Assembly: GCA_005882895.1 (NCBI GenBank)
Contig: VBBD01000022.1
Coordinates: 1 to 34,883 of the forward strand
DNA: 34,883 nt
DNA from: Candidatus Bathyarchaeota archaeon
GTDB lineage: Archaea; Thermoproteota; Bathyarchaeia; 40CM-2-53-6
Reading direction: 5' to 3'
A model generated the notes under the pieces. The model ran no database searches. It saw only the letters and a list, made by a program, of their open reading frames with translations, and was not told the DNA's origin. How positions within the stretch are numbered: the first letter of the stretch is position 1; each line of letters opens with the position of its first letter. The position numbers were made by a program, and so were the translations under genes. Below are positions 3,315-34,883 of this stretch, one piece after another.

Positions 3315-3504
3315 GGGGCCGTAGTCTAGCCAGACCCATCGAAAGCGCGGGGTCCTAGAAAGGAATGACGACGGGCTCCAGAATCCATTACAACAGGACA
3401 TACCGACCTAAATTGAGGGATGAGGAAATTCAGGAGCGCGTGAAGATACCCGTAGACGAGAGACTCGGCGGATGTCGTGGGTTCGAATCCCACCGGCCCC
3501 ACCA
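3315..3504 (+). tRNA. tRNA-Trp (anticodon CCA) with three proposed introns
   Basis: Acceptor GGGGCCG (3315-3321) pairs with CGGCCCC (3494-3500), followed by A73 and an encoded CCA. The T-arm is GTGGG-TTCGAAT-CCCAC. Three insertions separate the exons. Intron 1, 3332-3360 (D-loop): central helix CTAG/CTAG, bulges CCA and AAA, inner helix GACCC/GGGTC. Intron 2, 3382-3447: canonical 37/38 site after CTCCAG; its central helix is imperfect. Intron 3, 3456-3473 (variable region): helix CCGT/GCGG, bulges AGA and ATG, inner helix CGAG/CTCG. Cutting each bulge after its second base yields exons 3315-3331, 3361-3381, 3448-3455 and 3474-3504. These form a normal 74-nt tRNA with D-arm GTCTAGCCAGGAATGAC, anticodon arm ACGGG-CTCCAGA-CCCGT and variable loop AGGTC. 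The tRNA itself is near certain; the exon model is a manual fold. Confidence 0.85.
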
Positions 3505-10223: not shown

Positions 10224-10631
10224 TTGGGTTTCGAAAAGTTTGGCAGATTCGGCTACGTCTCCCAGACCAAGGTCAATCCTCTGTTATCCTACCTTGAAAA
10301 AGGGAAGATCGCTGCCACAAGGTGCAAGAAATGCGGGAGAAAGTATTTTCCACCTAGAGCTGACTGCCTGGACTGTCGCCATAGTATCATAGAGTGGGTC
10401 GTGCTGGACGGGAAGAGCAACCTGATAACTTTCACCCAAGTTTTCTTCGCGCCACCCGTTTTTCAGCCTGAAACCCCGTACCTACTAGGGCTGGCAGAAC
10501 TCGTGAGTGGGTCGCGCGTTTTCGCGCCCATCAGTCCCACCGTAGACAAGGAGCAACTGAAACCAGGCCTCGAGCTGAACCTGAAAGTTGCAAAGGGCTC
10601 GCGTGACAACTTGTACTACTGGCTTGAATAG
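10224..10631 (+). CDS. DUF35 zinc-ribbon/OB-fold partner of the thiolase
   Basis: The 135-residue protein has a rubredoxin-like zinc ribbon near residues 34-51 (CKKCGRKYFPPRADCLDC) followed by an OB-fold (EWVVLDGKSNLITFTQV through GLELNLKVAKG), the order seen in DUF35 proteins. In archaea this family bridges thiolase to other CoA enzymes and positions the CoA. The TTG start is 5 nt after the thiolase stop, so they form a translational unit. It closes the + strand CoA cluster. Confidence 0.9.
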   Translation: MGFEKFGRFGYVSQTKVNPLLSYLEKGKIAATRCKKCGRKYFPPRADCLDCRHSIIEWVVLDGKSNLITFTQVFFAPPVFQPETPYLLGLAELVSGSRVFAPISPTVDKEQLKPGLELNLKVAKGSRDNLYYWLE

Positions 10632-10722: not shown

Positions 10723-10934
10723 AGGAATCGCCCGTTATCAGCCCTGATCTTGAAAAGGAGAGGGGGTCTCTAGATTTCCGTGTAATCGTTCGGGATGCAC
10801 CGATGAAATCACTTTATCCGCCCTGGCATCCAAGCCCAGTCTAAGCCCTGAATCGCGAGCCTCGCCCAGAATCCATGCCAGACAGCAAATGACCTCTCCA
10901 GACCGGGGGGGTCTTAGCGACTCGACCTCGCGAC
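10723..10934 (-). repeat. ~210-bp non-coding element, copy 1 (inverted relative to copy 2)
   Basis: The reverse complement of this interval aligns over its whole length with 19174-19382. A 55-bp core is identical (10814-10868 here, 19239-19293 there), and the flanks diverge by substitutions and small indels. The core contains GCGAGGCTCGC, a near-perfect palindrome, and CTGGGCTTGGATGCCAG, which could form a hairpin. ORFs in both copies share a peptide, but an indel after the core breaks the frame, so conservation is at the nucleotide level. It could be a structured RNA or a miniature transposable element. No clear terminal inverted repeats or target-site duplications were found. Confidence 0.85.
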
Positions 10935-10954
10935 GCAAGAGTGGTCTTTCCGGG

Positions 10955-11800
10955 CTATTCGAGCCGAGGTAATCGGAGATCATCGCCCGCAGTTCGATAG
11001 CCCAGCTTCATGGCTAAAGGAGGACGTCTCTTGTGCTCCGACTTCAACCATCGTTCTCGGACTTTCCTAACCAACGCTAGCGCCAATCCTGTTTCTTTCG
11101 CAATTTCTTCTGGTGCCATCCATCTTTCGAGTCCCCAGAGAATCCTATCCAGCTTCTCATAGCTGAGTCCCAGTTCTTTCTCAGCGGTCTGCCCGGGCCA
11201 TAGCTCAGGGCTCGAGGCTTTCACGCGGATCCTCTCAGGAATACCCAATTGTCTAGCGAGGTGGCGTACTGATGTCTTGTAGACGTCCGCCAAAGGCAGA
11301 ATATCGCAGGCCCCATCTCCGAACTTGGTGAAGTAGCCTAGCATGATCTCGCTCTTGTCACCGGTTCCCACAACGAGACCACGCTCGGAGTTAGCGAAGT
11401 AGTACAGAACCATGGCCCGGAGCCGTGCTTTTACATTCCCCCAGGGAATTCCCTTCGCCATCTTAGCGCTGAGCGTAGTCCGAGCAGATTCGACAATCGG
11501 CGTAATATCAATTATCTTGAAACGTATTCGAGATTTCGATGCCACCAGTCTGGCATCTTTCAGAGCCTTATCGTTCCTCGTCTCCTTCTCCGGCAGACTT
11601 ATCCCCAGAACTTTCTCGCCACCGACAGCGAGCGCGCAAAGAGCTGCAGTGACGCTAGAATCGAGGCCGCCGGACATACCTACGACGAGGCGCCTTGCAC
11701 CGGTTTCTTCTAGGTGAGTTTTGAGAAATCGTTCAAGTCGGCTTACTGTCTCTTCTGGCTCCCGAATGGCGAAAGAATCGTCGCCGAACCTAGAGGACAT
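10955..11800 (-). CDS. nadE: NAD+ synthetase (ammonia/amide dependent)
   Basis: The 281-residue product catalyses the last step of NAD biosynthesis, amidating deamido-NAD via an adenylate. The PP-loop SGGLDSSVTA lies at about residues 44-53. GNVKARLRAMVLYYFAN, VVGTGDKSEIMLGYFTKFGDG and DILPLADVYKTSVRHLA are hallmark NadE segments, and ASPELWPGQTAEKELGLSYE matches the C-terminal NaAD-binding loop. No glutaminase domain is attached, so it is the short, ammonia-using form typical of archaea. The C-terminal end lies 20 nt from the repeat element. It is followed on the same strand by no obvious partner; the PAN-like gene is 46 nt upstream, so co-transcription is likely. Confidence 0.95.
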   Translation of the reverse strand: MSSRFGDDSFAIREPEETVSRLERFLKTHLEETGARRLVVGMSGGLDSSVTAALCALAVGGEKVLGISLPEKETRNDKALKDARLVASKSRIRFKIIDITPIVESARTTLSAKMAKGIPWGNVKARLRAMVLYYFANSERGLVVGTGDKSEIMLGYFTKFGDGACDILPLADVYKTSVRHLARQLGIPERIRVKASSPELWPGQTAEKELGLSYEKLDRILWGLERWMAPEEIAKETGLALALVRKVRERWLKSEHKRRPPLAMKLGYRTAGDDLRLPRLE

Positions 11801-11846
11801 AGCGCCCTCAACATTCAGGCCAGTGTAATAAGCCGAGAGACTTGGT

Positions 11847-13106
11847 CTAGCTGACGATACGTGAGCCGCGATCTTCTGTGAGGAGGCTCTTGAACAGAGG
11901 AAGCATCCTCTCCATCGTCACCCAGCGCTCACTCGCAAAAGAAGCCTCGCTCGCCGCTTCCTGAACAATATTCTTCAGATCCCGAGGCGTCACAACATAC
12001 TGCTCACGAACAGTAACCCCTCGCTCAGGAATCGAAGCCTCATACAACTGCTTCCTAGACCTAATCGTCCGCCAGATATCCCCAAACGCCTCGTCAGTCA
12101 ATCCTCCCCGATAGTTCGAGATAGACGGATCCAACTCGACCTTGGAGCAGTAAAAGTCCAACAACCTCTTCACTTCCTCCATCGATCTCGGAGGCGGAAC
12201 ATAGATGATCCGCTTGATTCTATCCAGGAGCGCGGTATCTATGACGCTCGGATAGTTTGTGGCAAATATCACAGACACGTTCCTATTGACATGGAACCCC
12301 TCTCCAAGCTCGGTAAGAATCTGGTTCAGCATTCCCTGAACATCTCTCCCCGCATCCGTCGTCGCCTCCATCCTCGCACGCCCAATAGCATCAGCCTCAT
12401 CGATGAAAAGAACCGTAGGAGCTGATTCCCGAGCCAGCTTGAAGACTTCCTTGACATTCTTCGCCGACTCGCCAAGCCACTTTGACACTATCTCGTAGCT
12501 CTCTATCTTGAGAAAGCTAGTCTCTTGACCCCGCTGCCCAATCGTCCCCGCTACAGCCTTCGCCATGTAGGTCTTGCCCGTACCAGGCGGACCGAACAAC
12601 AGAATGGACCCGGCTTCCTCCAACATCCTTGGGTCGCGGATAATTTGCTCCCGCCGAGTACGGACCTGAGGGTCAAGTATCCACTCGACCGCCTGTCTCA
12701 GACTAAGCAGTTCCTTTTCGAGACCAACAACATCCTCGTAGAACACCTTGGGCGATTTTTCGACCTGATACTCTAGGAGTGAGCGCTCGCGCAACCTGTC
12801 AATTACGTCGACAATAACCCCCTTCGTAGGAGAGAGGACTGCATCCACTTCAGTCGACACTTTTTCTCTAATCTCTGGAGGAATGCTAACCTGGAAAGCC
12901 TGCCCGCCCGATAACCGGACCAACGCCATGTCTCCCTTGACCTCTTCAATAGTCCCTATCGGACGCATACCCTGTTTCAGCTCCTCCATCAGGTTGTGGT
13001 ACCGGCGGAGCTCGGTCTGGAGATACTCTATCTGCCGCTCCTTTCGGGTCAGTTCCCTTTCGAGGTCTAATGCAGGAGGATATTCTGGCGAGTTCTGCTC
13101 GGCCAT
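11847..13106 (-). CDS. PAN/ARC-like AAA+ ATPase lacking a proteasome-docking tail
   Basis: The 419-residue protein has an N-terminal coiled coil (about 12-50, LERELTRKERQIEYLQTELRR), an OB domain (about 51-110, IGTIEEVKGDMALVRLSGG) and one AAA+ module: Walker A GPPGTGKT, pore-loop region KWLGES, Walker B VLFIDEADA and sensor ATN. This is the PAN (proteasome-activating nucleotidase) layout. Two features differ. The second region of homology reads ALLDRIKRIIYVPPP instead of the usual LRPGRFDR form. The C-terminus is SRIVS, not the HbYX tail that opens the 20S gate. It is probably an unfoldase or remodelling hexamer for a different partner (inference). It has its own TATA box and precedes nadE. 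Confidence 0.85.
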   Translation of the reverse strand: MAEQNSPEYPPALDLERELTRKERQIEYLQTELRRYHNLMEELKQGMRPIGTIEEVKGDMALVRLSGGQAFQVSIPPEIREKVSTEVDAVLSPTKGVIVDVIDRLRERSLLEYQVEKSPKVFYEDVVGLEKELLSLRQAVEWILDPQVRTRREQIIRDPRMLEEAGSILLFGPPGTGKTYMAKAVAGTIGQRGQETSFLKIESYEIVSKWLGESAKNVKEVFKLARESAPTVLFIDEADAIGRARMEATTDAGRDVQGMLNQILTELGEGFHVNRNVSVIFATNYPSVIDTALLDRIKRIIYVPPPRSMEEVKRLLDFYCSKVELDPSISNYRGGLTDEAFGDIWRTIRSRKQLYEASIPERGVTVREQYVVTPRDLKNIVQEAASEASFASERWVTMERMLPLFKSLLTEDRGSRIVS

Positions 13107-13135
13107 GCAGCTTCTGCTCCAACATAGCCCACCGA

Positions 13136-13146
13136 GGAATAAATAG
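13136..13146 (-). promoter_or_regulatory. TATA box of the PAN-like ATPase gene
   Basis: On the minus strand CTATTTATTCC lies about 30-40 nt before the ATG at 13106, placing transcription start close to the start codon. Confidence 0.45.
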
Positions 13147-13343
13147 ATATGGGCTTCACCCCCGCGCCAATCTTGTGGTCTTTCGAATAGAGAGCTGATT
13201 GGAGTCTCAACAAAATAGGACGCAGGGACCTAAGAAAAGAGCACTCACGAGATCTATCAACTTCAGAGTAGACATTGACGCCTACCCAGACAAATTGGTG
13301 GAGAGTTGAGACTTGATTGATTCTGGGAAAACATGTGTTCAGC

Positions 13344-14114
13344 CTAGCTTATTCGACCGGTCGTCCCTGCGCTCGGCCGATTTCTCAGGAATCCGAATCG
13401 AGGGAGATGAAGTTGGATACCTATTCCACTGATAATATCGAAGCGTACCAGTCGTGGGATGATCTGGCGACGATCCATTTTCCTGACGAGCAGGTATCGA
13501 CGTAGCACCTGATGTTCTTCCACCATTCGCAATTCGACTACACCATCTACAAGACTCTCGACCTTGTGAAATAGCTCGGGCTGGACACTTCCCGTAGAGA
13601 GAGTGGCTATCATTTTTCCACCCGCCTTCTTGACTTTGGCGGCGATACTCTGGAGGAAGCTGACCGCGTGTTTCGGTTCCGTCTCGCTGAAGATGGGCAT
13701 CAACGAGTCGACTATTATAGTAACTTGATGGTTCCCCATTTTTTCCATAACTGACGTCAAGTAGATGCTCACATTGGTCAGGTCGAATGGTTGAGGCACG
13801 ACTCCTTCAGTCACGCCTGCAGTGGCCGAGTAACAGTCGACGATGCTCAGCTTGTTCAGCAGCTGGTATTTTCTGGGGTCCCATCCAAACTGGCCCATCC
13901 TCTCAAGGATGTTGGCAGGGAACGTGTCATATGTGACAATGATACATGGTCTCGATCTCTGGAGCTCCTCATACAGAATTTGTTGTGCAAGAGTGGTCTT
14001 CCCACTTCCCGGGTCGCCAGTCACCAGCACTGAGGACGAGTCGGGTAGACTTCCTCCTATGAGCTCATAGAATCCTTTGAAGGGCGAGGACCCGTATTCC
14101 AGTTGTAAGTTCAC
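13344..14114 (-). CDS. KaiC/RAD55-like RecA-superfamily ATPase
   Basis: The 256-residue protein starts with the KaiC-like lead GSSPFKGFYELIGGSLP, Walker A GDPGSGKTTLAQQIL (about 31-45) and a long Walker B strand HQVTIIVDSLMPIF (about 128-141). GGKMIATLSTG and VDGVVELRMVEEHQVLRRYLLVRKM match the later strands and the Arg/Lys finger area of single-domain archaeal KaiC-like proteins (COG0467). These are ATPases often linked to signalling or motility, without a known clock role in archaea. The C-terminal ~25 residues are basic and unusual. The start is GTG. It has no clear operon partner here; function is unknown beyond ATP-driven regulation. Confidence 0.82.
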   Translation of the reverse strand: MNLQLEYGSSPFKGFYELIGGSLPDSSSVLVTGDPGSGKTTLAQQILYEELQRSRPCIIVTYDTFPANILERMGQFGWDPRKYQLLNKLSIVDCYSATAGVTEGVVPQPFDLTNVSIYLTSVMEKMGNHQVTIIVDSLMPIFSETEPKHAVSFLQSIAAKVKKAGGKMIATLSTGSVQPELFHKVESLVDGVVELRMVEEHQVLRRYLLVRKMDRRQIIPRLVRFDIISGIGIQLHLPRFGFLRNRPSAGTTGRIS

Positions 14115-14511
14115 CTAGGGGAAATTAACCGTCGAAGCCACTATTTCCCGTTAGGATGCTCCGGCATATGAATGGGGATTGTAACCTGTACACCTAGCAT
14201 TGAGTGACCGAGCTCGTGAAAATGAGTTCACTCAAGCCCTAAGCTTGTCCACACTTGCTACAAGTTCATCGCGACAAGGAGCCGGAATTCAGATGCGTAT
14301 TGTGTCGAACATTCTGGTGCAGTTTTCAAGAGAAAGTAGAGGTGGCGATGGAAGGAGTCTGAAAGATATAAGGCTCGCTTGTTTCCCGGTACTCGTAAGA
14401 TGGGCAGAAGTCGGTTGCGGGCGATATTTTGTCTTAACAGTTCTTGTTTGTTAATTTAGTGCGGGAACTGCTGCGAAAAATGTGCGATAACGTTCTAAGT
14501 CCGGGCAAGTT
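14115..14511. other. Intergenic region with no supported gene
   Basis: A + strand ORF at 14200-14454 is compositionally unlike a protein (serine-, arginine-rich with a Cys-Gly tail) and has no motif, so it was not called. The region may hold promoters for the KaiC-like gene, but no strong TATA box was identified. Confidence 0.4.
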
Positions 14512-14643
14512 TTAGTCGAACTCGTTCTCAAGGCCACTCGACTCGCTTATGAGGCGCGCATGTAGCTCAAGTAGGTTAATCAGAGTGGCAATGTCGTCGA
14601 GATCTTCGGCCGCAAATATCCGCTTGGGGGTTCGCTCTCCCAT
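14512..14643 (-). CDS. 43-residue acidic helical small protein
   Basis: This ORF is too short for the track. From the ATG at 14643-14641 it encodes a 43-residue peptide beginning MGERTPKRIFAAEDLDD, continuing with an amphipathic helix (IATLINLLELHARLISE) and ending NEFD. The hydrophobic/acidic spacing is protein-like, with no rare or low-complexity runs. It sits alone in a 650-nt gap between two minus-strand genes. It resembles no family I can name; a small regulator or partner of a larger protein is possible. The evidence is coding appearance only. Confidence 0.42.
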   Translation of the reverse strand: MGERTPKRIFAAEDLDDIATLINLLELHARLISESSGLENEFD

Positions 14644-14770
14644 GCCATCTCGACGCGTGTGTTCGCTTGTCCGGTGTTAGTATAAGGATTATCATTCTTC
14701 GAATATCGAAACCAAAGTCTGGAAACTTGACAAAGAAGCGAACCTACGGCAAATCAGATTCGTCGCGATG

Positions 14771-15811
14771 CTATATCGTTGGTGGCGGCGGTGGCTTTCG
14801 TACCTTGATGGCCAATAGGATTAGGAAAAGCGCCACTCCGAATATCGTCAGTAGCACGACCGCGGAGACGACGGGAGCAGAGGTTGTGCCGCTTATGTTC
14901 AGAGTGATGGTGCTCACACCTCCAGGTGTTGCTGATGCATCTTCAGACCATTTTACATCCTGCCCTTGGTACGTGACGCGAGCTGTGTAAGGTCCGAGCG
15001 GAATGTCTCCAAGGCCGACCGTTCCCTGGCTGCCGGTTAGGTGGCTTACACTGGTTGAGTTTGGAGGAGCAAAAGTAACGGTTACATTCGCACCAGACAC
15101 TGGATTATTGTTTAGGTCAACGACTTTTACGCTAGCCGGGTAGACTGCGAGTTGAATCGACTTTGTCACCGGACCGTTGGTAAGGTCTATCGTTTGTGCA
15201 CCTATTACAAGACCGGGTATCCCTTCCCATTTCGCATCTACGACACTCCAGCTTGCGGCTTGCAACCACTGACCAGAGTAGGCGGAGGTCGTCAGAGCGC
15301 CAGTGGGACCTGACAGCGTAATGCTGGCCGGAGCAGGACTCAATGCGGCTCCGTTATAGTCTGTAAATGTTAGCGTATATTGGAATTGCTTGTCAAACTG
15401 GGCCGTGAACTGGTCGTTGGGTAAGGTGTAGTTGTATATCATCAGAGGAGTGGTCATGTTCGCATTGGGATACTGCAGCGTGTGCCAAGTCCAGGCGGCT
15501 TTGGAATCCCAGAGGTAGCGGGCACCAGATGGCGTGCCGCTGACCGTTAGAGTGAGGACTTCGAGTGAATGGGTCGTTCCATTTGTAAACGCGAACAGGT
15601 GTGGCAGAGGGTATTCTAGAGCATTGTTGCCGTCCTGTCGAACTATTACTGAACCCTCTGCACTTGGCACATTGGTCTGAGCGTATAGATAGCATGTGGG
15701 CGGCGTTCCCGGTTTACACCCTTGAATGGCGTGTACATTTGTGATGAATAAAGGAGCGAGTATAGCTGCGACGATAAGGGTGAGAACTGTGATAGTCCCT
15801 CTTGATCTCAT
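14771..15811 (-). CDS. Secreted, C-terminally membrane-anchored surface protein
   Basis: The 346-residue product has a signal peptide (residues about 7-28, ITVLTLIVAAILAPLFITNVHA), a beta-rich extracellular region with several N-glycosylation sequons (NGT, NMT, NYT, NVT, NST), and a C-terminal membrane helix (about 314-336, VVSAVVLLTIFGVALFLILLAI) followed by KVRKPPPPP. A small Ig-like or carboxypeptidase-regulatory-like domain (about 225-300) is marked by VVDLNNNPVSGANVTVTF and GDIPLGPYTARVTYQG. Two cysteines near the mature N-terminus could form a disulphide. The topology matches the other surface proteins in this window. The role is unknown, probably in the cell envelope. Confidence 0.75.
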   Translation of the reverse strand: MRSRGTITVLTLIVAAILAPLFITNVHAIQGCKPGTPPTCYLYAQTNVPSAEGSVIVRQDGNNALEYPLPHLFAFTNGTTHSLEVLTLTVSGTPSGARYLWDSKAAWTWHTLQYPNANMTTPLMIYNYTLPNDQFTAQFDKQFQYTLTFTDYNGAALSPAPASITLSGPTGALTTSAYSGQWLQAASWSVVDAKWEGIPGLVIGAQTIDLTNGPVTKSIQLAVYPASVKVVDLNNNPVSGANVTVTFAPPNSTSVSHLTGSQGTVGLGDIPLGPYTARVTYQGQDVKWSEDASATPGGVSTITLNISGTTSAPVVSAVVLLTIFGVALFLILLAIKVRKPPPPPTI

Positions 15812-16346
15812 GATAATCCTCGCTTGGAGTCAAGGGAAGTTCGAACTACTGAGTTTAGAACGTCTTGAACCGTGCGATGGCAGGTGAGGGTACTAGAGTC
15901 CTTTAGAGTTAATCAACTTCGAGCGCCCGAAATTCGGGAGGGCTGTATTGTGAGTCGGAATCAGCCTCCCTCGAAAGTGGGCCTCTAGCGATTCTGAGTG
16001 GTGCGATCGCGCTCTTTTGAAGAATATTCCTCCTTCTCTTCCTTTTCGAAAGACGAAGTCTTCCCGACTTAGATTACGCTAGCTCTTCCGTCTTCGTCGG
16101 AAGGGTACTTTGGACTAGCTGCGTCTGTAGGAGCGAGAAAGGTAGAGAGCACGAACGGTTGACGTGGTTTTGATCGTGGTGAGGGTAGTTGCTTTACAAT
16201 TTGCGGGATGTATTCTCTAGCCTTTCGAACCGGCTCTTCTAGGGATATCAGGACTGGTTGGAAGCATCCGCCCAGATTTCTTGGATAGCTCCGACCTGAA
16301 TAGAAAGTTAGATATTGAGGACCTACATTAGAAGTTCCGTCGGGCC
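15812..16346. other. Intergenic region with a small hairpin
   Basis: This 535-nt gap separates a minus-strand surface-protein gene from the plus-strand BlaI-type gene. CTTCCG-TCTTCGT-CGGAAG (16085-16103) forms a 6-bp hairpin. A minus-strand ORF at 16069-16455 overlaps the BlaI-type gene antisense and is judged a shadow. No clear BlaI-type operator palindrome was found. Confidence 0.35.
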
Positions 16347-16727
16347 TTGGAACTAGGAGACCTGGAAGCAGCGGTTCTGGGAAGCGTTGTACGGCTTGGC
16401 AGAGCCTCTGCCAGGGAGGTTGCTCAAGACCTTCATTCCAGTCGCGGGCTTGCATACACTACTATCAGTACTACCCTAGATCGGCTCTTCAAGAAGGGTA
16501 TTCTGACCCGCGACGAGGCCGTTGGAAGAGGAGGGTCCCGATACGTTTACCGGCTTTATTCGGAGGACAAGGTGAAGGGTCGGGTCGTCAAAGGGTTTGT
16601 CGATAGGTTGCTCACAGCTTTCGGACCGAGCATAATCTCCACCTTGCACGACTACATGGATGAAATTCCGAAAGATGAACTGAAGAGGCTGGAAGAAAAA
16701 GTTCGAAGGGAGTCCGGGCAACGATAA
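16347..16727 (+). CDS. BlaI/MecI/CopY-family transcriptional repressor
   Basis: The 126-residue protein has the winged-helix of the BlaI family: ELGDLEAAVLGSVVRLGRASAREVAQDL (helices 1-2), then LAYTTISTTLDRLFKKGILTRDE (recognition helix and wing) and GGSRYVYRLYSED. The C-terminal half is a dimerisation helix region (LLTAFGPSIISTLHDYM). In bacteria these repressors are cut by a membrane metalloprotease (BlaR1/MecR1, M56) to release genes. Here a membrane metalloprotease frame starts immediately after the stop, which mirrors that pairing in an archaeon. The start is TTG. The target genes are unknown; the pair itself and the adjacent aldehyde dehydrogenase are candidates. Confidence 0.85.
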   Translation: MELGDLEAAVLGSVVRLGRASAREVAQDLHSSRGLAYTTISTTLDRLFKKGILTRDEAVGRGGSRYVYRLYSEDKVKGRVVKGFVDRLLTAFGPSIISTLHDYMDEIPKDELKRLEEKVRRESGQR

Positions 16728-16729
16728 GC

Positions 16730-17650
16730 CTGGAACTCTACTCTGTCTACTTTCTTTCGAGAGCGACTCTTGGAATCGTAGCCGCCGTCTTAGTAGTCCA
16801 AGCCCTCTCTTTCCTTGCCTACCGATCGAATGCAGGGAATCCTTTGCGAAGATCCAGACTGCTCTATCCGATTTTATCCTCCTCTGTTTTCTTTTGGTCG
16901 TTTCTTGGGACTAGCTTTGTCGTGTGCACTCTTTTCCTCAACACGTATGAGTGGCAGCCGCAACGAGTGATAGAACTCGTGCTTGGAAGCTCGCTGCTTG
17001 CATCTATAGGAATCGCGTCTCTATTGTCGCTAATTGCGCGAAGATACGCGTTCCCTCGGATGATGGAAGGCATGATTGCAGGAACATCCTCAGGCTCGCT
17101 ACTGAGCGAGACATTCGCAGATCTCTGCGGAAAAATGAACATGCGAGGAGTCGACCTAAGAGAAGCAACAGTTGGAAACGCTTTTTCCTTGGATAACAAG
17201 GGATTGAAAGTCGTGGCGGTGTCTCCAGAACTGGTCTCGTCAATGTCCCCGGTAGAGGTTGAGGCGGTCATTGCTCACGAACTCTCCCACTTGAAGAACA
17301 ACGATTCTCTGGAAAAGGGACTAGCTAGATTGGCCAAATTGGCGCTTGCTTTTGATCCAATCGTGCATCTTGTTGAGGCGGCAGTCCATAGGGAACGAGA
17401 GCTCTTGGCCGACCTGTCCTCGGTCAAGTACACTCAAAAGCCATTGGCTCTGGCATCCGCTTTGCTCAAGGTTCACTCAGCGTTTCAAGCCGGCTCACCC
17501 GGACCAGGTGCCGGATTGTTTGTGGGCCACAAGGGAAGAGGCTTGCTCAGCAGGTATCCCGACCTTGACCGAAGAATCCAACTATTGATCGACATGTCCC
17601 GTGAGATGAAGATGACGACGATTCCCGCCTGGGGAAACGCTCTTTTATAG
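16730..17650 (+). CDS. Membrane-bound M48/M56-like zinc metalloprotease, start uncertain
   Basis: The ORF track starts at TTG 16844, but the frame upstream encodes a first membrane helix (TLGIVAAVLVVQALSFLAY) back to the repressor stop. No ATG, GTG or TTG occurs before an in-frame TGA at 16676; CTG 16730 or ATA 16724 are candidate starts. Two further membrane segments follow (SSVFFWSFLGTSFVVCTLF; LVLGSSLLASIGIASLLSLIA). The protease core has NAFSLDNKGLKVVAVSPEL, the zinc motif HELSH and the third-ligand region RERELLADLSSV, as in M48 and M56 families. It probably cleaves the adjacent BlaI-type repressor or membrane proteins. No penicillin-sensor domain is attached, so any signal differs from beta-lactams. 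Confidence 0.85.
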   Translation: MELYSVYFLSRATLGIVAAVLVVQALSFLAYRSNAGNPLRRSRLLYPILSSSVFFWSFLGTSFVVCTLFLNTYEWQPQRVIELVLGSSLLASIGIASLLSLIARRYAFPRMMEGMIAGTSSGSLLSETFADLCGKMNMRGVDLREATVGNAFSLDNKGLKVVAVSPELVSSMSPVEVEAVIAHELSHLKNNDSLEKGLARLAKLALAFDPIVHLVEAAVHRERELLADLSSVKYTQKPLALASALLKVHSAFQAGSPGPGAGLFVGHKGRGLLSRYPDLDRRIQLLIDMSREMKMTTIPAWGNALL

Positions 17651-17674
17651 TCTCATCCAGTTTGGAATGCGGAC

Positions 17675-19132
17675 TTGACCGTTCAGATTCAGAAGTACAA
17701 GATGCTGATTGGCGGAGAATGGAAGGACAGCTCAAACGGTGCCGTCTCATCAGTTCTTGACCCTTCGAACAACGAGGTTGTCGCCGAAGTTCCACGAGCC
17801 ACAAAACAAGATGCGAAGGCCGCAGTCGAGAGTGCGAAGACGGCGCTCGAGTCGGCGGGCTGGATTGACATCGATCCCAGTAAGAGAGGACGTCTTCTTT
17901 CCAAGCTCACAAGCCTAGTCCGAGAGAGCTCGGAGCAGCTGGCAAGGCTTGAGACTCTGAGCGAGGGGAAGACTCTCCGAGAGTCAAAGGGCGATGTTGC
18001 ATGGGCGGCCAGGGCATTCGAGTACTGGGCCGGATTGGCAGACAAGGTTGAAGGAGAGACCATCCCGGTTCCTCCGAGGAGGTTGAATTACACTCTCCGA
18101 GAGCCGTTAGGTGTAACGGTGCACATTGTTCCCTGGAACTATCCGATTGCACTGGCTGCGAGAAGTTTGGCACCGGCTATTGCGGCGGGGAACACTGTCG
18201 TCATGAAGCCATCTGAAATTACGCCACTTACAGCCATCATGCTGGGAGATCTGGCGCTAAAGGCCGGCTTCCCCAGAGGAGTCATCAACATTGTGACTGG
18301 ATCAGGCGCTGAAGTTGGCGGAGCTCTTGTGTCGGACTCGCAAGCGGACGGGATAGTTTTCACCGGGTCTGCTGAGACTGGAAAGCAGGTAATGGAATCC
18401 GCCGCGAAGCATGTTACTAGAGTTCTATTGGAACTAGGAGGGAAGAATCCTCACATTGTTTTCCCTGACGCCGACTTGGCGAGAGCCTCCAAGAGTGTGA
18501 AGGAGGGGATCTTTACCAACGCTGGACAGATGTGCTGGGCTGGATCCAGAGCTTTCATTCACGAGAGTGTATACGACGGCTTCGTCAAGGATCTCGTGGC
18601 CAAGACTCGAGCGATCAAAGTTGGGCCCGGCACTGATGAAACGAGCGAGATGGGGCCTTTGGCGTCCAAGTCTCGCCAAGACGCGGTTCTAGGGTTTGTC
18701 AAGGACGGCCTCGAAGAAGGAGCGAGTCTACTCTGCGGAGGGAAGAAACCCGCAGATCCGAGACTGCAGAAGGGAAACTTCCTCGAACCTACAATCTTCG
18801 AGAGTGTCAACGGGAAGATGAAGATTGGCTGTGACGAGATTTTTGGGCCTGTCCTAGGCATTACCAAGTTCAAGACCCTCGATGAGGTTGTTGCCATGGC
18901 AAATGAGACGGATTATGGACTCTATGGAGGAGTTTGGACGAGCAATTTGAAAGTAGCTCATGAACTCGCGGCTCGTCTCCAAGTCGGTGGATTGGCGGTG
19001 AACGAGTATTTGGTGACTTTTCCGCAGACCCCGTTCGGTGGCTACAAAGACAGCGGCATCGGGCATGAGAATGGAATCCGCTCGTTGGAATTCTACACGC
19101 GGACCAAGAATGTCTCGATAAACTTGTCATAA
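17675..19132 (+). CDS. NAD(P)-dependent aldehyde dehydrogenase (betaine-aldehyde-DH-like)
   Basis: The 485-residue protein is a full-length ALDH superfamily member oxidising an aldehyde to its acid. The cofactor-binding segment IVPWNYPIALAARSLAPAIAAGN, the base glutamate in LLELGGKNPHIVF (about residue 254), the nucleophile in NAGQMCWAGSR (about residue 288) and EIFGPVLGI near the C-terminus are intact. PFGGYKDSGIGHENG is the usual terminal motif. The TTG start lies 24 nt after the protease stop, so it may share the BlaI-type operon. The substrate cannot be read from sequence. Copy 2 of the non-coding element begins 42 nt downstream. Confidence 0.93.
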   Translation: MTVQIQKYKMLIGGEWKDSSNGAVSSVLDPSNNEVVAEVPRATKQDAKAAVESAKTALESAGWIDIDPSKRGRLLSKLTSLVRESSEQLARLETLSEGKTLRESKGDVAWAARAFEYWAGLADKVEGETIPVPPRRLNYTLREPLGVTVHIVPWNYPIALAARSLAPAIAAGNTVVMKPSEITPLTAIMLGDLALKAGFPRGVINIVTGSGAEVGGALVSDSQADGIVFTGSAETGKQVMESAAKHVTRVLLELGGKNPHIVFPDADLARASKSVKEGIFTNAGQMCWAGSRAFIHESVYDGFVKDLVAKTRAIKVGPGTDETSEMGPLASKSRQDAVLGFVKDGLEEGASLLCGGKKPADPRLQKGNFLEPTIFESVNGKMKIGCDEIFGPVLGITKFKTLDEVVAMANETDYGLYGGVWTSNLKVAHELAARLQVGGLAVNEYLVTFPQTPFGGYKDSGIGHENGIRSLEFYTRTKNVSINLS

Positions 19133-19173
19133 GGCGCTTTTGTAGGCTCCGGTCCCGTCCCTCGGCACTTTGT

Positions 19174-19382
19174 GTCGCGAGACTCGGTCGCTAAGACCCC
19201 CCTCCCCCTAAGGACCATTTGCTGTCTGGCAGGGTTTTTGGGCGAGGCTCGCGATTCAGGGCTTAGACTGGGCTTGGATGCCAGGGCGGATAATGGGATT
19301 TCATCGGTTACATCCCGAACGATTACAGGGAAATCTAGGGACCCCCCCTTTTCAAGATCAGGGCTGAAAATGGGCGATTCTT
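19174..19382 (+). repeat. ~210-bp non-coding element, copy 2
   Basis: This is the direct-strand copy of the element seen inverted at 10723-10934, with an identical 55-bp core at 19239-19293. Both copies begin GTCGCGAG, pass TCGCTAAGACCCCCC and end near TTTTCAAGATCAGGGCTGA...GGGCGATTC. Each copy lies just after the last gene of a + strand unit (DUF35 gene; aldehyde dehydrogenase), although only copy 2 has the same orientation as that unit. A possible terminator hairpin lies about 195 nt further on. Confidence 0.85.
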
Positions 19383-19609: not shown

Positions 19610-20536
19610 CTATGTTAGTTCATCCAGTAAGGGCGTAATGTCGCGGTTGTAGATGTCCTGTTCAACGAAGGGTTTGTCCTTCAGCGCGGGCATTCGAAGA
19701 GCCAACTGGTCTTCGAACGTTGGTACCTCCATCTTGAGGAAAACGCCGATGGGTATCTTGTCGCCCCACTCGAACGATTTCACAAGCGCATTTCCTTTCT
19801 TTGCATTAACCTCGTCTGTGGAGGGATCGACCACCGAACCATTGTATCCTGAATCCTCCAGCTTGTAGAGTCTCGGTGCTTTGACCGGAAGGTCTTCGCC
19901 ACCATACCACTCCTTTGTGTTTATGTCATTGTAGGTCGGGCATGTCTGCAGAACGTCCACGAAAGCGCTTCCCCGATGCTCAATCGCCGCTCGAAGAGTC
20001 TGCTTCAAGTGGCGAACATCGAGAGCGTAACTTCGCGCCACGAACGTATAGCCCGAGGCTACAGCCATCGCGATCGGATTCACACGTTCAATAATGGCGG
20101 GCGCGGGCATAGACTTCGTCTTAACACCCTTAGGCAAAGTAGGGGATGCTTGACCTTTCGTCAGACCGTAGACTCCGTTATCGTAAAGGACGTATGTAAA
20201 GTCCAGATTCCTCCTACCCGTGTTGACAAAGTGTCCGGCGCCTATGCCCAGCCCGTCTCCATCACCGCCAACCGCGACAACGGTCAATCCCGGATTGGCC
20301 AGACGGGCACCAGTGGCGATTGGGAGTACTCGGCCATGGAGGGTATGGAATCCGTAGGCGTTTACAAAGTGTGGAGTCTTACCAGAGCATCCGATTCCCG
20401 AGAAGATTGCGATCCTATGGGGTTCTAGCTGCATTTCCAGAAGGGTCATCTGAATCGCGTTGACGATTCCAAAATCGCCGCAACCGGGGCACCAGTCGTT
20501 GTGAACCTGTGTTCGGTACGTCTTTAACTCAAGCAT
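19610..20536 (-). CDS. 2-oxoacid:ferredoxin oxidoreductase, beta subunit
   Basis: The 308-residue subunit binds thiamine diphosphate and one [4Fe-4S] cluster. The expected four cysteines are visible: the pair in WCPGCGDFG, one in GIGCSGK and one in LQTCPTYND. The TPP/Mg motif is GGDGDGLGIGAGHF followed by LYDNGVYGLTKGQ. It oxidatively decarboxylates 2-oxoacids such as pyruvate or 2-oxoglutarate to acyl-CoA while reducing ferredoxin. The start ATG lies inside the end of the alpha gene (8-nt overlap), so the two are translationally coupled. The two-subunit form resembles crenarchaeal enzymes with broad substrate range; the exact substrate is not set by sequence alone. Confidence 0.93.
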   Translation of the reverse strand: MLELKTYRTQVHNDWCPGCGDFGIVNAIQMTLLEMQLEPHRIAIFSGIGCSGKTPHFVNAYGFHTLHGRVLPIATGARLANPGLTVVAVGGDGDGLGIGAGHFVNTGRRNLDFTYVLYDNGVYGLTKGQASPTLPKGVKTKSMPAPAIIERVNPIAMAVASGYTFVARSYALDVRHLKQTLRAAIEHRGSAFVDVLQTCPTYNDINTKEWYGGEDLPVKAPRLYKLEDSGYNGSVVDPSTDEVNAKKGNALVKSFEWGDKIPIGVFLKMEVPTFEDQLALRMPALKDKPFVEQDIYNRDITPLLDELT

Positions 20537-23575: not shown

Positions 23576-23914
23576 TCATGCCTTTGTCTGAGCGGGTGAA
23601 GCTGGCTGAGCGGGTGGGGGAGTGTAGCTGGGGTTTACTCTCTGGTTGATCTCGTTTGCGAGAGCGTGTCCATGGAGGATAACTGTGACCTTCTTGACTC
23701 CTTCAAGCTTGGATGTCAACATCCGTATGTTCATTCCGATGTCTTCTGCAAAGATCGGCGGACAGAACGGCGCGGTCAGATGATACTTGATGAGGATCTC
23801 CCCGTTGTCCTGAATGTTTATCTCGTCCACGAGATGCATCTCTGTGATCGGAAGCCCGATCTCTGGGTCGACAACCTTCTCAAGCTCTCTTTCGATCGCT
23901 TCGACGGTAACCAT
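23576..23914 (-). CDS. DUF59/MIP18-family Fe-S cluster maturation protein
   Basis: The 112-residue protein is a single DUF59 domain: VEAIERELEKVVDPEIGLPITEMHLVDEI at the start, then KYHLTAPFCPPIF with the reactive cysteine of the family (about residue 51) and GVKKVTVILHG. Relatives such as SufT, MIP18/CIA2 and PaaD assist iron-sulphur cluster insertion. The last ~20 residues are a Pro-, Ala-rich tail (TPPPAQPASPAQ). A TATA box lies about 34 nt upstream. Another DUF59 domain is fused to the Mrp ATPase at 26-27 kb, so this locus has two such proteins that may cooperate in serving Fe-S enzymes like the ferredoxin oxidoreductase. Confidence 0.88.
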   Translation of the reverse strand: MVTVEAIERELEKVVDPEIGLPITEMHLVDEINIQDNGEILIKYHLTAPFCPPIFAEDIGMNIRMLTSKLEGVKKVTVILHGHALANEINQRVNPSYTPPPAQPASPAQTKA

Positions 23915-23952: not shown

Positions 23953-23997
23953 TTCCTCGGTTGCCTCGACGTCTGCTCCGCGGGGTGCCAGAATTGA

Positions 23998-24021
23998 GAT
24001 CAGGGTCGATTATGGGCGATT
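23998..24021 (+). repeat. Possible partial third copy of the ~210-bp element's 3' end
   Basis: AGATCAGGGTCGATTATGGGCGATT resembles AGATCAGGGCTGAAAATGGGCGATT at the end of copy 2 with few mismatches. It lies between two divergent promoters. The match is short, so chance or a shared protein-binding site is possible. Confidence 0.3.
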
Positions 24022-24066
24022 TTCGTCCGGAGGAGTCGTCTATCAAGGATTATGACGTAAGTCATG

Positions 24067-28479: not shown

Positions 28480-28593
28480 GCGGGGGTACCATAGCCAGGT
28501 CAAATGGGCAGAGGGTCACTGGAAAGCACCCGCCTAGGGCTTAGGACCCTGTGGCGAAGGCCTTCGTGGGTTCGAATCCCACCCCCCGCACCA
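28480..28593 (+). tRNA. tRNA-Leu (anticodon TAG) with one non-canonical intron
   Basis: GCGGGGG pairs with CCCCCGC, followed by A and CCA; the D-arm is CCAT-AGCCAGGTCAA-ATGG, the T-arm GTGGG-TTCGAAT-CCCAC, and the long variable arm TGGCGAAGGCCTTC marks a class II tRNA. A 26-nt intron (28512-28537) interrupts the 5' strand of the anticodon stem: central helix GGGC/GCCT, bulges AGA and AGG, inner helix GGGT/ACCC. Cutting after the second bulge base gives CAGGG-CTTAGGA-CCCTG, a perfect anticodon arm with TAG. It lies 4 nt after tRNA-Glu, so both are probably processed from one transcript. Confidence 0.92.
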
Positions 28594-31279: not shown

Positions 31280-34200
31280 TCAAACGGTGACGGAGAAGGA
31301 CGAGAATTCCAAATGATGATGCCTTACGGTGACCACCTGACTTATGATCGTCCCATCTGGCAACGAGGATTCAACCGTGAACGTCGATTTGCCTGAAATG
31401 TGAGGATGAAACCCAACGAAACCATCGGCGTCCGTGAACGCCATCGCCACCAGGTTTCCGCCCGAATCAAAGAGCGAGACGGATATGTTCGCCACCGGAC
31501 TTCCCATCTGGTCAGTGATAATGCCCGCGACCACCCGGTCCTGTTTGAACACGTTGTCGCTCACGATAGTCTGGGTGTCCGTAAGAGAGCTGGCGCTGAC
31601 GGAGAAGGAGTATGTGGCGTCATCGGGGATTACCACCTGACCCGTACCCGGATTTGTAGCGTTGTCGTCACTCTTTCCGAACGACGAGCCCTTCAGACCA
31701 TAGTTCAGATGCACCGTCAGGTAAACCATTCCAGATGATGGAACACTGCCTGAGACCGTTATCGTCACTGTTGACCCGAGAGCTTGCGCGCTGTAGTCCG
31801 TAAGAGCAATCGCGGCTGGAGTTATTGCAAAGCTATTGCTGACATTATTGATCGGCACAAAGCAGCCCGACTGAAGACCAAAGTTCGAGAAGACCTGGAC
31901 AGGGTTTGTGCCCTGTGTCACGAATGGATACGGGACAGACATGGACAACGTGACGGGCGTGCCTGCAGTCCCGTTGAAGAAAACATTGTAGGCAAACTGG
32001 CCTGGATTACTCGCTGCCAGCGTAAACCCGGAAGCCAACTTGCTCTTGGCGTTGCTTTGCACGAAAATCAAGTGGAACTGGTCGCCGAAGCCGCACAGGC
32101 TACCATCAGTCACTACACTACTCAGCTGCCCGATACTTACGATAGCGAATGTGAACGTGGCCGTGGTCGACTGGGACGCGGTGCCAGGCGAACCAGTACC
32201 GGTAATGGTTACAGTGAAAGCGTTCGCAGTAGTCGAAGTGCACGACAGACTGGAGGTGCCAGTACCGTTAGCAGCGAGCGATACGGGTGTTACGGTGAAC
32301 GGGTTGCAGGTCAAACCAGCAGGAAGAGGAGTATCAGAGAGAGCAACAGAGCCAACAAAGTTGAACGTACTAGTCAGAGTAATCGTCGAAGACATTGATG
32401 TGCCGGTAGCTCCACTAGGAGACGTAGCACTGATCGTGAAATCGCCTACGTGGGATACGAAGCTAGCTGTGTGAGTGCGACCGCCACCGGTTGCCGTGAT
32501 TGACACAGTGTAGGTTCCTGGGGTTGAGGAGGAAGGAGTGCAAGTACCAGTAACAGCTCCAGAAGTCACGGTCAGACTCGTAGCGCAGTTGGCGGTAAGA
32601 CCGGTGGAAGGTGAAACGACAGTGGTGAGAGTAACAGCACCAGTGAAGCTTCCAATCGGAGTGATAGTGATCGTTGAGCTGCCTGTTGTGCCAGTGTTGA
32701 AGTCAGCAGGCGAAGTTGCACTGATTGTGAAGTCCACTAATCCTGTGAATGTGAACGTGGCCGTAGTCGAGTGAGACGCGGTACCAGGCGAGCCAACCCC
32801 GTTGATGCCCACGATGAAAGCGTTAGCGGTAGTCGAAGTACAGCTGATGCTGGCCATGCCCGTACCGTTCGCTGAGAGCGGAACGGTGGCCGTTGGGCTA
32901 AAGGGCTGGCAGGTCAGACCAGAAGGAACAGTATCACCGAGAGCAACAGAGCCCACAAAGTTGAACGTGCTGGTAAGAGTAATCGAGGAAGAGATCGATG
33001 TGCTCGTCGCACCGCTTGGAGACGTAGCACTGATAGAAAAGTCACCGACATGAACGGTTGCAACAGCAAAGTGAGACGCGGTGCCAGGCGAGCCGATACC
33101 AGTGATAGTCGCGCCATAGGTTCCGGCAGCTGTCGAAGCTAGAGAACAGGAAGCGGCGACAGTAGCATTCGCAGTAATGCTAACAGGCGCAGGACACGTG
33201 ACCGTCAAACCGGTAGCTGGAATATTCACCGCGGCCAGACTGACAGTGCCAGCGAAGTTGAAGGTACTAGCGAGAGAGACGGAGATAGCAGAACCAGTAG
33301 CACCGGAATTGAAGTTCACAGGGCCACCAACGGAAATTGAAAAGTCACCAACATGTGAGGCGAAGCTGTTAGTGTGAGTGTGACCGCCGCCACTAGCAGA
33401 GATAGAGATACCGTAGGTTCCAGGCGCAGAAGAGGACGGACTGCAGGTACCAGTCACCACGCCGGTTGTCACGGTCAGACTCGTAGGACAATTAGCCGTG
33501 AGACCGGTAGATGGCGAGATAACAGTCGTCAGAGTCACGGTACCCATGAAACCGTTGAGCGGAGTTATGGTAATCGTCGAACTGCCAGTCGCACCAGTGT
33601 TGAAATCAGCTGGGGAAGAAACGCCGATAGTGTAGTCTACAACTCCAGTAAATGTGAACGTGGCCGTGGTCGAGTGAGACGCAGTACCAGGAGAACCCAC
33701 ACCGCTGATGTTCACATTGAAAGCGTTCACGGTCGTCGAAGTGCACGAGAGATTAGCGGTTCCCGTACCATTTGTTGCTAGAGAGACTGCGGCGGAGGGA
33801 CTAAACGACTGGCATGTAAGACCCGCAGGAACAGTATCACCGAGAGCAACCGTACCAACAAAGTTGAACGTACTCGTCAGGGTAATCGTCGAAGAGATCG
33901 ACGAGCCCACAGCACCGCTTGGAGACGTAGCACTAATCGTGAAGTCACCAACATGGACTGTTGACGCAGCAGAGTGAGAAGCTGTACCAGGCGAACCCGC
34001 ACCAGTAATAGTTACACCGTACGTTCCGGCAGTCGTAGAGGCCAAAGTACACGAGGCAGCAACAGTAGCATTCGCAGTAGTACTGACAGGAGCAGGACAT
34101 GTGACTGTCAAGCCAGTAGCCGGACTTGTAACCGCAGTCAGACTGATCGTGCCAGCGAAGTTGAACGTACTGGTCAGAGAGACAGAGATAGCAGAACCAG

Positions 34201-34883
34201 TGGCACCGGAATTGAAGTTGACAGGGCTACCGGCAGAGATGGAAAAGTCCCCGACGTGAGAGATGAAAGTTGCACTGTGAGTGTGACCACCACCCGTGCC
34301 GGTGATAGTGACCAGATAGGTTCCAGGAGTCGAAGAGGAAGGAGCACATGTCCCGGTAACGGCGCCTGAGACGACCGTGAGACTTGTCGGACAATTAGCC
34401 GCAAGACCAGTCGAAGGCGAGACAACCGTGGCAAGGTTGACTGCACCAGTGAAACCTCCCGAGGGAGTGATGGTAATCGTCGAACTGCCGGTCGCACCCG
34501 TATTGAAATCAGCAGGCGACGAAGCCGTAATCGCAAAGTCGGTGCCAACAGTGAAGGTGAACACGGCAGGGGCCGAGTGCGACGCGGTGCCAGGCGAACC
34601 AGCACCGGCGATAGTTACGGGGAACATGCCCGCTGAGGTTGAATTGCAGGACAACGATGACGTACCAGTACCGTTTGAGGTAAGCGACACAGGAGTCACG
34701 GTGAACGCGCTACAGGTCAAACCAGAAGGAAGAGGAGTATCAGAGAGAGCAACAGAACCAACAAAGTTGAACGTACTAGTCAGAGTAATCGTCGAGCTGA
34801 TCGACGAACCCGCAGCACCACTAGGAGACGTAGCACTAATCGTGAAATCACCAACATGGACTGTTGAAGCGGCAGAGTGAGAA
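31280..34883 (-). CDS. Giant secreted repeat protein (5' end beyond window)
   Basis: The frame is open to the right edge; the track's start at 34720 is an internal TTG codon, because the repeat continues upstream without a break (VHVGDFTISATSPSGAAGSS...). About 1200 residues are visible. They form an array of ~95-105-residue Ig-like modules of three kinds: A (DFNTGATGSSTITITP), B (NFNSGATGSAISVSL) and C (ISSTITLTSTFNFVG). From the visible N-terminal side the order is C-A-B-C-A-B-C-A-C. Regular Cys pairs (NCPTSLT/GTCAPSS, TVTCPAP/ASCTLAS) probably form a disulphide in each module. The C-terminal ~280 residues are non-repetitive and include a carboxypeptidase-regulatory-like domain (VVAGIITDQMGSPVANISVSLFDSGG). 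No C-terminal membrane helix is present, so it is secreted or held by another partner. Confidence 0.85.
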   Translation of the reverse strand, partial: SHSAASTVHVGDFTISATSPSGAAGSSISSTITLTSTFNFVGSVALSDTPLPSGLTCSAFTVTPVSLTSNGTGTSSLSCNSTSAGMFPVTIAGAGSPGTASHSAPAVFTFTVGTDFAITASSPADFNTGATGSSTITITPSGGFTGAVNLATVVSPSTGLAANCPTSLTVVSGAVTGTCAPSSSTPGTYLVTITGTGGGHTHSATFISHVGDFSISAGSPVNFNSGATGSAISVSLTSTFNFAGTISLTAVTSPATGLTVTCPAPVSTTANATVAASCTLASTTAGTYGVTITGAGSPGTASHSAASTVHVGDFTISATSPSGAVGSSISSTITLTSTFNFVGTVALGDTVPAGLTCQSFSPSAAVSLATNGTGTANLSCTSTTVNAFNVNISGVGSPGTASHSTTATFTFTGVVDYTIGVSSPADFNTGATGSSTITITPLNGFMGTVTLTTVISPSTGLTANCPTSLTVTTGVVTGTCSPSSSAPGTYGISISASGGGHTHTNSFASHVGDFSISVGGPVNFNSGATGSAISVSLASTFNFAGTVSLAAVNIPATGLTVTCPAPVSITANATVAASCSLASTAAGTYGATITGIGSPGTASHFAVATVHVGDFSISATSPSGATSTSISSSITLTSTFNFVGSVALGDTVPSGLTCQPFSPTATVPLSANGTGMASISCTSTTANAFIVGINGVGSPGTASHSTTATFTFTGLVDFTISATSPADFNTGTTGSSTITITPIGSFTGAVTLTTVVSPSTGLTANCATSLTVTSGAVTGTCTPSSSTPGTYTVSITATGGGRTHTASFVSHVGDFTISATSPSGATGTSMSSTITLTSTFNFVGSVALSDTPLPAGLTCNPFTVTPVSLAANGTGTSSLSCTSTTANAFTVTITGTGSPGTASQSTTATFTFAIVSIGQLSSVVTDGSLCGFGDQFHLIFVQSNAKSKLASGFTLAASNPGQFAYNVFFNGTAGTPVTLSMSVPYPFVTQGTNPVQVFSNFGLQSGCFVPINNVSNSFAITPAAIALTDYSAQALGSTVTITVSGSVPSSGMVYLTVHLNYGLKGSSFGKSDDNATNPGTGQVVIPDDATYSFSVSASSLTDTQTIVSDNVFKQDRVVAGIITDQMGSPVANISVSLFDSGGNLVAMAFTDADGFVGFHPHISGKSTFTVESSLPDGTIISQVVTVRHHHLEFSSFSVTV
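32130..34883 (-). repeat. Tandem DNA repeats encoding A/B/C Ig-like modules
   Basis: Segments such as GTTGAACGTACTAGTCAGAGTAATCG and GTGAGACGCGGTGCCAGGCGA recur roughly every 300 nt, with a higher-order A-B-C period near 900 nt. Near-identity between distant copies indicates recent duplication or gene conversion. Such arrays are prone to length change and to assembly collapse. Confidence 0.8.

Follow-up and report, generated by a model that had tools for sequence, protein, structure and literature searches.

A dispersed intergenic repeat of soil Bathyarchaeota with three conserved blocks, a putative protein-binding chromosomal element

Introduction

Interspersed repeats of prokaryotes are usually mobile or differently placed in different species. 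The bacterial families ERIC/RU, STAR, BIME/REP and REPIN are multi-copy, intergenic and non-coding, some of them forming short arrays that grow and shrink, and they are mosaics of modules; gene conversion has been proposed for some of these families. MITEs are likewise short, dispersed and non-coding, with discrete ends. Archaeal ORB boxes lie between genes, upstream of orc1/cdc6, and the dispersed satellite DNA of eukaryotes, a model of concerted evolution, consists of tandem units, with single units near genes, that are homogenised within a genome and diverge between species. Published accounts describe REPINs as persisting as sequence populations in bacteria (PMC8049555), and STAR loci as expanding and contracting and as sitting at different places in different staphylococcal species (PMC3532100).

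Here we analyze an inverted pair of sequences of about 220 bp in a stretch of 34,883 nucleotides from a Candidatus Bathyarchaeota genome (contig VBBD01000022.1 of assembly GCA_005882895.1), hereafter the window. The Bathyarchaeia are uncultured and without genetics. The two sequences are copies of a dispersed, genus-specific, intergenic non-coding repeat of soil Bathyarchaeota; no description of a repeat of this kind in Bathyarchaeota was found in the open-access literature and, as far as we found, it is previously unreported. The repeat shares the above traits with ERIC/RU, STAR, BIME/REP and REPIN but is archaeal, about 220 bp long, neither palindromic nor hairpin-forming, and without a RAYT partner; moreover, its sites are common to several species, whereas the account of STAR describes locations that vary between species (PMC3532100). 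Compared with MITEs, it has no terminal inverted repeats, clear target-site duplication or found autonomous partner, and its sites are old and shared. Like ORB boxes it is intergenic and found upstream of orc1/cdc6, with a small dyad and a G-run in many copies of its subfamily I, but by a weak matrix test the ORB consensus of the genus is absent from it, and it occupies about 50 sites per genome. It recalls satellite DNA in its tandem units, homogenised within a genome and diverging between species, and in single units near genes, yet its arrays have only 1-3 units and occupy conserved sites in a 2-Mb archaeal genome.

Results

The original prediction described 10814-10868 and 19239-19293 as exact reverse complements over 55 bp, set in flanks that match less well, and this is correct to the base. 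The longer arms are 82-95% complementary, reaching 95% in the core arms (10799-10891/19216-19308) by inverted-repeat comparison of the window and 82-92% in the flanking arms (10725-10797 and 10906-10938), far above chance expectation. An nhmmer profile built from members of the repeat family places two full copies of subfamily I, copy 1 at 10725-10945 on the + strand (E ~1e-62, also delimited by alignment) and copy 2 at 19170-19380 on the − strand (E ~1e-56). Both lie in gaps between convergent genes, identified using Pfam: copy 1 between the genes for a ChsH2-like zinc-ribbon/OB protein (10224-10631, +) and NAD synthase (10955-11800, −), and copy 2 between those for aldehyde dehydrogenase (17675-19132, +) and a 2-oxoacid:ferredoxin oxidoreductase beta-type protein (19610-20536, −). 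The site of copy 2 has an orthologous counterpart in 10 other species. A third, partial piece of the repeat is an isolated 5′ block (profile positions 1-40) at 23983-24022 on the − strand (nhmmer E 1.4e-5, and visible in the sequence), immediately upstream of the gene for an Fe-S assembly protein (23576-23914, −; Pfam). The palindrome GCGAG(C/G)CTCGC reported for the core is present, and the alignment shows that it differs among copies (GCGAGACTCGC, GCCTGTCTCGC, GCAAGACTCGC and others).

Further copies, sought in the assembly and in related genomes as had been proposed, were found. Copy 1 as query gave 49 matches in the source assembly (1.97 Mb in 92 contigs, 87% complete). A second subfamily, which first came to light through 5′-end matches immediately preceding ordinary copies, contributes at least another 16 places; both subfamilies together occupy about 50 sites in the 1.97 Mb, all of these copy numbers being lower bounds because they come from sequence searches. 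The second subfamily (for example L103:1106-1332, L013:1170-1400 and L062:1175-1400, among others) has the 5′ block in common with subfamily I and departs from it in the middle and 3′ part (..GAAAAGAAATTCCTATAACTTTTG..). Each site holds an array of 1-3 head-to-tail units drawn from the two subfamilies, the second often providing the upstream unit of mixed arrays, and many sites have two or three units with a period of about 242 nt (a unit of about 219 and a linker of about 24 nt). Several contigs start or stop inside a copy, as is expected for repeats in short-read assemblies, and the family accounts for some of the assembly breaks in soil Bathyarchaeota MAGs.

Among the first 60 relatives searched, matches were confined to the genus of the window. 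All 18 genomes searched of this soil Bathyarchaeota genus contain the repeat, each clade with its own version, and no match was obtained among the other genera searched, including 3 genomes of other genera of the same taxonomic family. A scan of 85,462 species genomes with the core pattern returned 56 stretches, every one in soil Bathyarchaeota MAGs (BA_3, BA_4, BA_21 to BA_25, 13_1_40CM_3_52_10 and _17). The far-clade species (G002, G003, G007, G008, G010, G011 and G016) have a divergent version of their own, matched up to 20 times in a genome, and their profile matches are nearly full-length in all but G002. The viral contigs, phages and plasmids searched held no copies, and an origin from any of these was rejected on that ground.

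The repeat was also predicted to be a multi-copy element conserved at the nucleotide level without coding capacity. Our results agree: an open frame is present in 31% of 121 copies and in 29% of shuffled sequences, and lengths modulo 3 are mixed among copies, so that a coding repeat was rejected, both measures being at chance level. On the contrary, the suggestion of a hairpin or structured RNA found no support in any of three tests. Folding was no better than that of shuffled sequences, either for copy 1 (z = +1.25/+1.10) or for 30 copies (mean z +0.31/+0.61); RNAalifold on 112 copies gave no consensus structure on either strand (−0.8 and 0.0 kcal/mol); and in the covariation check that had been called for, the top covarying columns are not Watson-Crick (7/100 above 0.8), the strongest covariation being local and due to alternative modules such as TCTTAGCGA versus TATTGTTCA. 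Rfam contained no match to the element.

None of the 98 tabulated clusters overlaps a gene predicted by a simple codon-usage caller, and, with the same gene predictions, convergent gaps are enriched (22/67 against 31/205 for other gaps, Fisher p 0.002). Orientation relative to co-directional neighbor genes is random, with 14 in the same and 15 in the opposite direction. We surveyed 23 sites of the source genome, picked regardless of presence elsewhere, in five other species, with both flanks required: of 71 orthologous site-genome pairs, 63 contain the element, with orientation conserved in 62, between flanks 71-93% identical. The sites are old and inherited vertically, and orientation is nearly always fixed. 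At the site of L023 in G012 the element is absent and a remnant of its 3′ end is left, which identifies this absence as a deletion. Site 1 is empty in three species, where the tight gap could be either a pre-insertion site or a deletion.

All 11 near-clade genomes have an element at the site after the aldehyde dehydrogenase gene, reversed in G000, G009 and G006 relative to the other eight. G006 and G001 differ in orientation there while their flanks are 92.7% and their elements 73.8% identical, which points to a replacement and not a flip. The proposal that the inverted pair could recombine and flip the intervening segment from nadE to the aldehyde dehydrogenase gene was not borne out either: among species with both markers on one contig, six others (G012, G014, G005, G006, G017 and G015) agree with the window in how markers inside the 8-kb segment are oriented relative to those outside it, and inversion of the segment is therefore unsupported.

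While the sites persist, their content turns over. A single site may differ between species in unit number and subfamily, and elements at orthologous sites are often much less alike than their flanks and nearer to other copies. For instance, L003 and L074 have flanks 87.7% and elements 75.7% identical, their best matches lie at other sites (88-89%), and the 89% match is a copy in the same genome; L019 and L058 show a similar swap of the interior. In the alignments, ends and flanks stay in register and the interior is replaced, and separate sites of one genome can hold copies with 99% identity. A paralog-like interior between intact ends and flanks is indicative of gene conversion or unequal recombination between copies; draft MAGs could misjoin near-identical copies, but most of the swapped pairs have no near-identical counterpart among the other copies.

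Conservation within the element is concentrated in three blocks at near-constant spacing, which are kept throughout the genus while the interior drifts. In copy 1 (+ strand) these are a 5′ block at 10725-10759 (positions 1-35; AATCGCCCATTATCAGCCCTGATC..GAATCTGG in the family), with 80% consensus agreement between the near and far clades, a middle block at 10825-10892 (positions 101-168; 58%), which contains most of the 55-bp core, and a 3′ block, CTCGCGACGCAAGAGTGG, with a partial dyad, at 10925-10945 (positions 201-221; 81%). Outside the three blocks agreement is 34-37%, with 37% in the variable interior at 10760-10824, the part that comparison of orthologs and paralogs shows to be swapped between copies. 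The motif of the 5′ block recurs in the middle block (AATCGCCCATTATC / ACTCGCCCATAATC); in a comparison of the profile with itself, this internal repeat scored 13.3, whereas the maximum after column shuffling was 2.9 +/- 1.5. Per-position conservation correlates between the two clades (Spearman 0.31), a value that no circular shift reaches. Since concerted drift without selection would not conserve the same positions in both clades, we infer that sequence-specific selection acts on the DNA of the three blocks. In subfamily I, A+T content shows a periodicity of about 10 bp (band p 0.008) that is weak in the other two sets, and 13 of the 18 genus members have one histone gene per genome (for example G000:C80:39055-39234); this rhythm and the histone gene are too weak to carry an explanation by histone positioning.

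In eight near-clade genomes (L181:275-493 in G000, L173, L175, L176, L177, L178, L179 and L182) the repeat directly precedes orc1/cdc6-1, on the strand of the gene, and in two far-clade genomes (G008:C78:25722-25816 and G016:C32:64503-64598) it is found upstream of the second cdc6. In the near clade, the upstream region of cdc6-1 holds no full copy in G005, G015 and G017, the last with a remnant. One cdc6 neighbor per clade is unusual given about 50 sites per some 2,000 genes (an assumed number); it was noticed post hoc and is kept as a lead. The far-clade regions upstream of cdc6-1 (L167-L172 and L174) have clear ORB-type boxes, such as TTGCACTGGAAATTAAGGGGTGGG and TTTCCAATGGAAATATAGGGGTGGGG, around an A+T-richer stretch, and near-clade genomes keep only one ORB box, next to the cdc6-1 start. 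A matrix of these boxes, a weak test because it is based on two distinct sequences, scores 8.4 on the elements, about 29 on the ORBs themselves and 6.1 on shuffled elements. The dyad, the G-run and the cdc6 location had suggested that the element is itself an ORB box, an identity that this weak matrix does not support.

Discussion

The repeat occurs in many copies, between genes and without coding, as do interspersed intergenic repeats in general. The short, hairpin-forming palindromic units that define REP, BIME and REPIN were not found by folding copy 1 and 30 copies. Because it fails this test as well as those for the terminal inverted repeats of MITEs, for RNA structure and for ORB boxes, we file it as a variant of the interspersed intergenic repeats.

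The best reading of these data, to which we give about an even chance, is that of a multi-block, putative protein-binding chromosomal element homogenised by recombination. The three conserved blocks would be candidate sites at which one or more proteins bind duplex DNA, and the element could then serve as a dispersed chromosomal landmark in nucleoid architecture, replication or regulation. Units contract, expand and trade interiors with other copies, and gene conversion together with unequal recombination between copies would render them alike within a genome and divergent between species.

The main rival is an old non-autonomous mobile element (MITE-, REPIN- or ERIC-like), once dispersed, now decayed and self-perpetuating through conversion without host function, a possibility that we take seriously while holding it to be the less probable. 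The miniature mobile element of the original prediction is right in so far as the pair belongs to a dispersed family, and high copy number, exclusively intergenic location, tandem arrangement, recent copies at separate sites with 99% identity, occasional reversed orientation at one site and the tight empty site 1 in three species are all compatible with it, as is the persistence described for REPIN-type populations in bacteria (PMC8049555). Mobility is harder to reconcile with sites that are old and common to several species, with at least one absence that is a deletion leaving a 3′ remnant (G012 at L023), and with the lack of clear new insertions or of any autonomous copy in the fetched loci. 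Comparison of the profile with itself reveals no terminal inverted repeats between the 5′ and 3′ ends, and Y1 (RAYT) transposase is absent from all 18 genus genomes, with controls ringing in 5 of 14, so that a RAYT/IS200-type partner was rejected. Slow loss and conversion could nevertheless retain sites without host function, and the blocks could be selected because they help the element itself to spread.

The other explanations appear much weaker. Dispersed Orc1/Cdc6-binding, putatively origin-type, sites would be in line with the copies upstream of orc1/cdc6-1 and of the second cdc6 and with the small dyad followed by a G-run that is frequent in subfamily I; we consider this improbable given that the true ORB boxes of the genus are visible upstream of far-clade cdc6-1 and score poorly, by the two-sequence matrix, on the elements, and that a copy is missing at cdc6-1 in some genomes. 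An RNA reading, in which the family consists of small non-coding RNAs or of mRNA leader or terminator elements, would account for conserved blocks without coding in intergenic positions, yet the folding, consensus-structure and covariation results, the empty Rfam search and the random orientation relative to co-directional genes make it very improbable. Least credible of all is a site-specific substrate for recombination that flips the segment from nadE to the aldehyde dehydrogenase gene: the two copies are indeed inverted and 8.3 kb apart, but they are members of a family that occupies about 50 sites, marker orientation is unchanged in six other species, and L132 and L135, opposite in orientation, have elements only 74% alike, as left by replacement.

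A broader version of the protein-binding reading is more doubtful than that reading itself, and we put it forward tentatively, as possible but rather unlikely: a new archaeal landmark with about 50 intergenic, duplex, multi-block putative protein platforms per genome, the orc1/cdc6 upstream region included. The platforms would sit at sites passed on by vertical descent, and conversion would reassort their interior modules into species-specific homogenised versions. Old sites shared between species, combined with content turnover by conversion, separate the conservation of sites from the conservation of sequence. If the element is a protein-binding landmark, it would provide a sequence-defined handle on chromosome organization in Bathyarchaeia.

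Other features of the window include a 5S rRNA gene at 636-757 on the − strand (Rfam RF00001) and a 30-nt stretch common to 3475-3504 and 28564-28593 that resembles a tRNA T arm and CCA end. An open frame of 1146 aa at 31280-34720 on the − strand, with internal direct repeats of about 300 nt and six copies of a 40-nt motif, probably encodes a repeat-domain surface protein.
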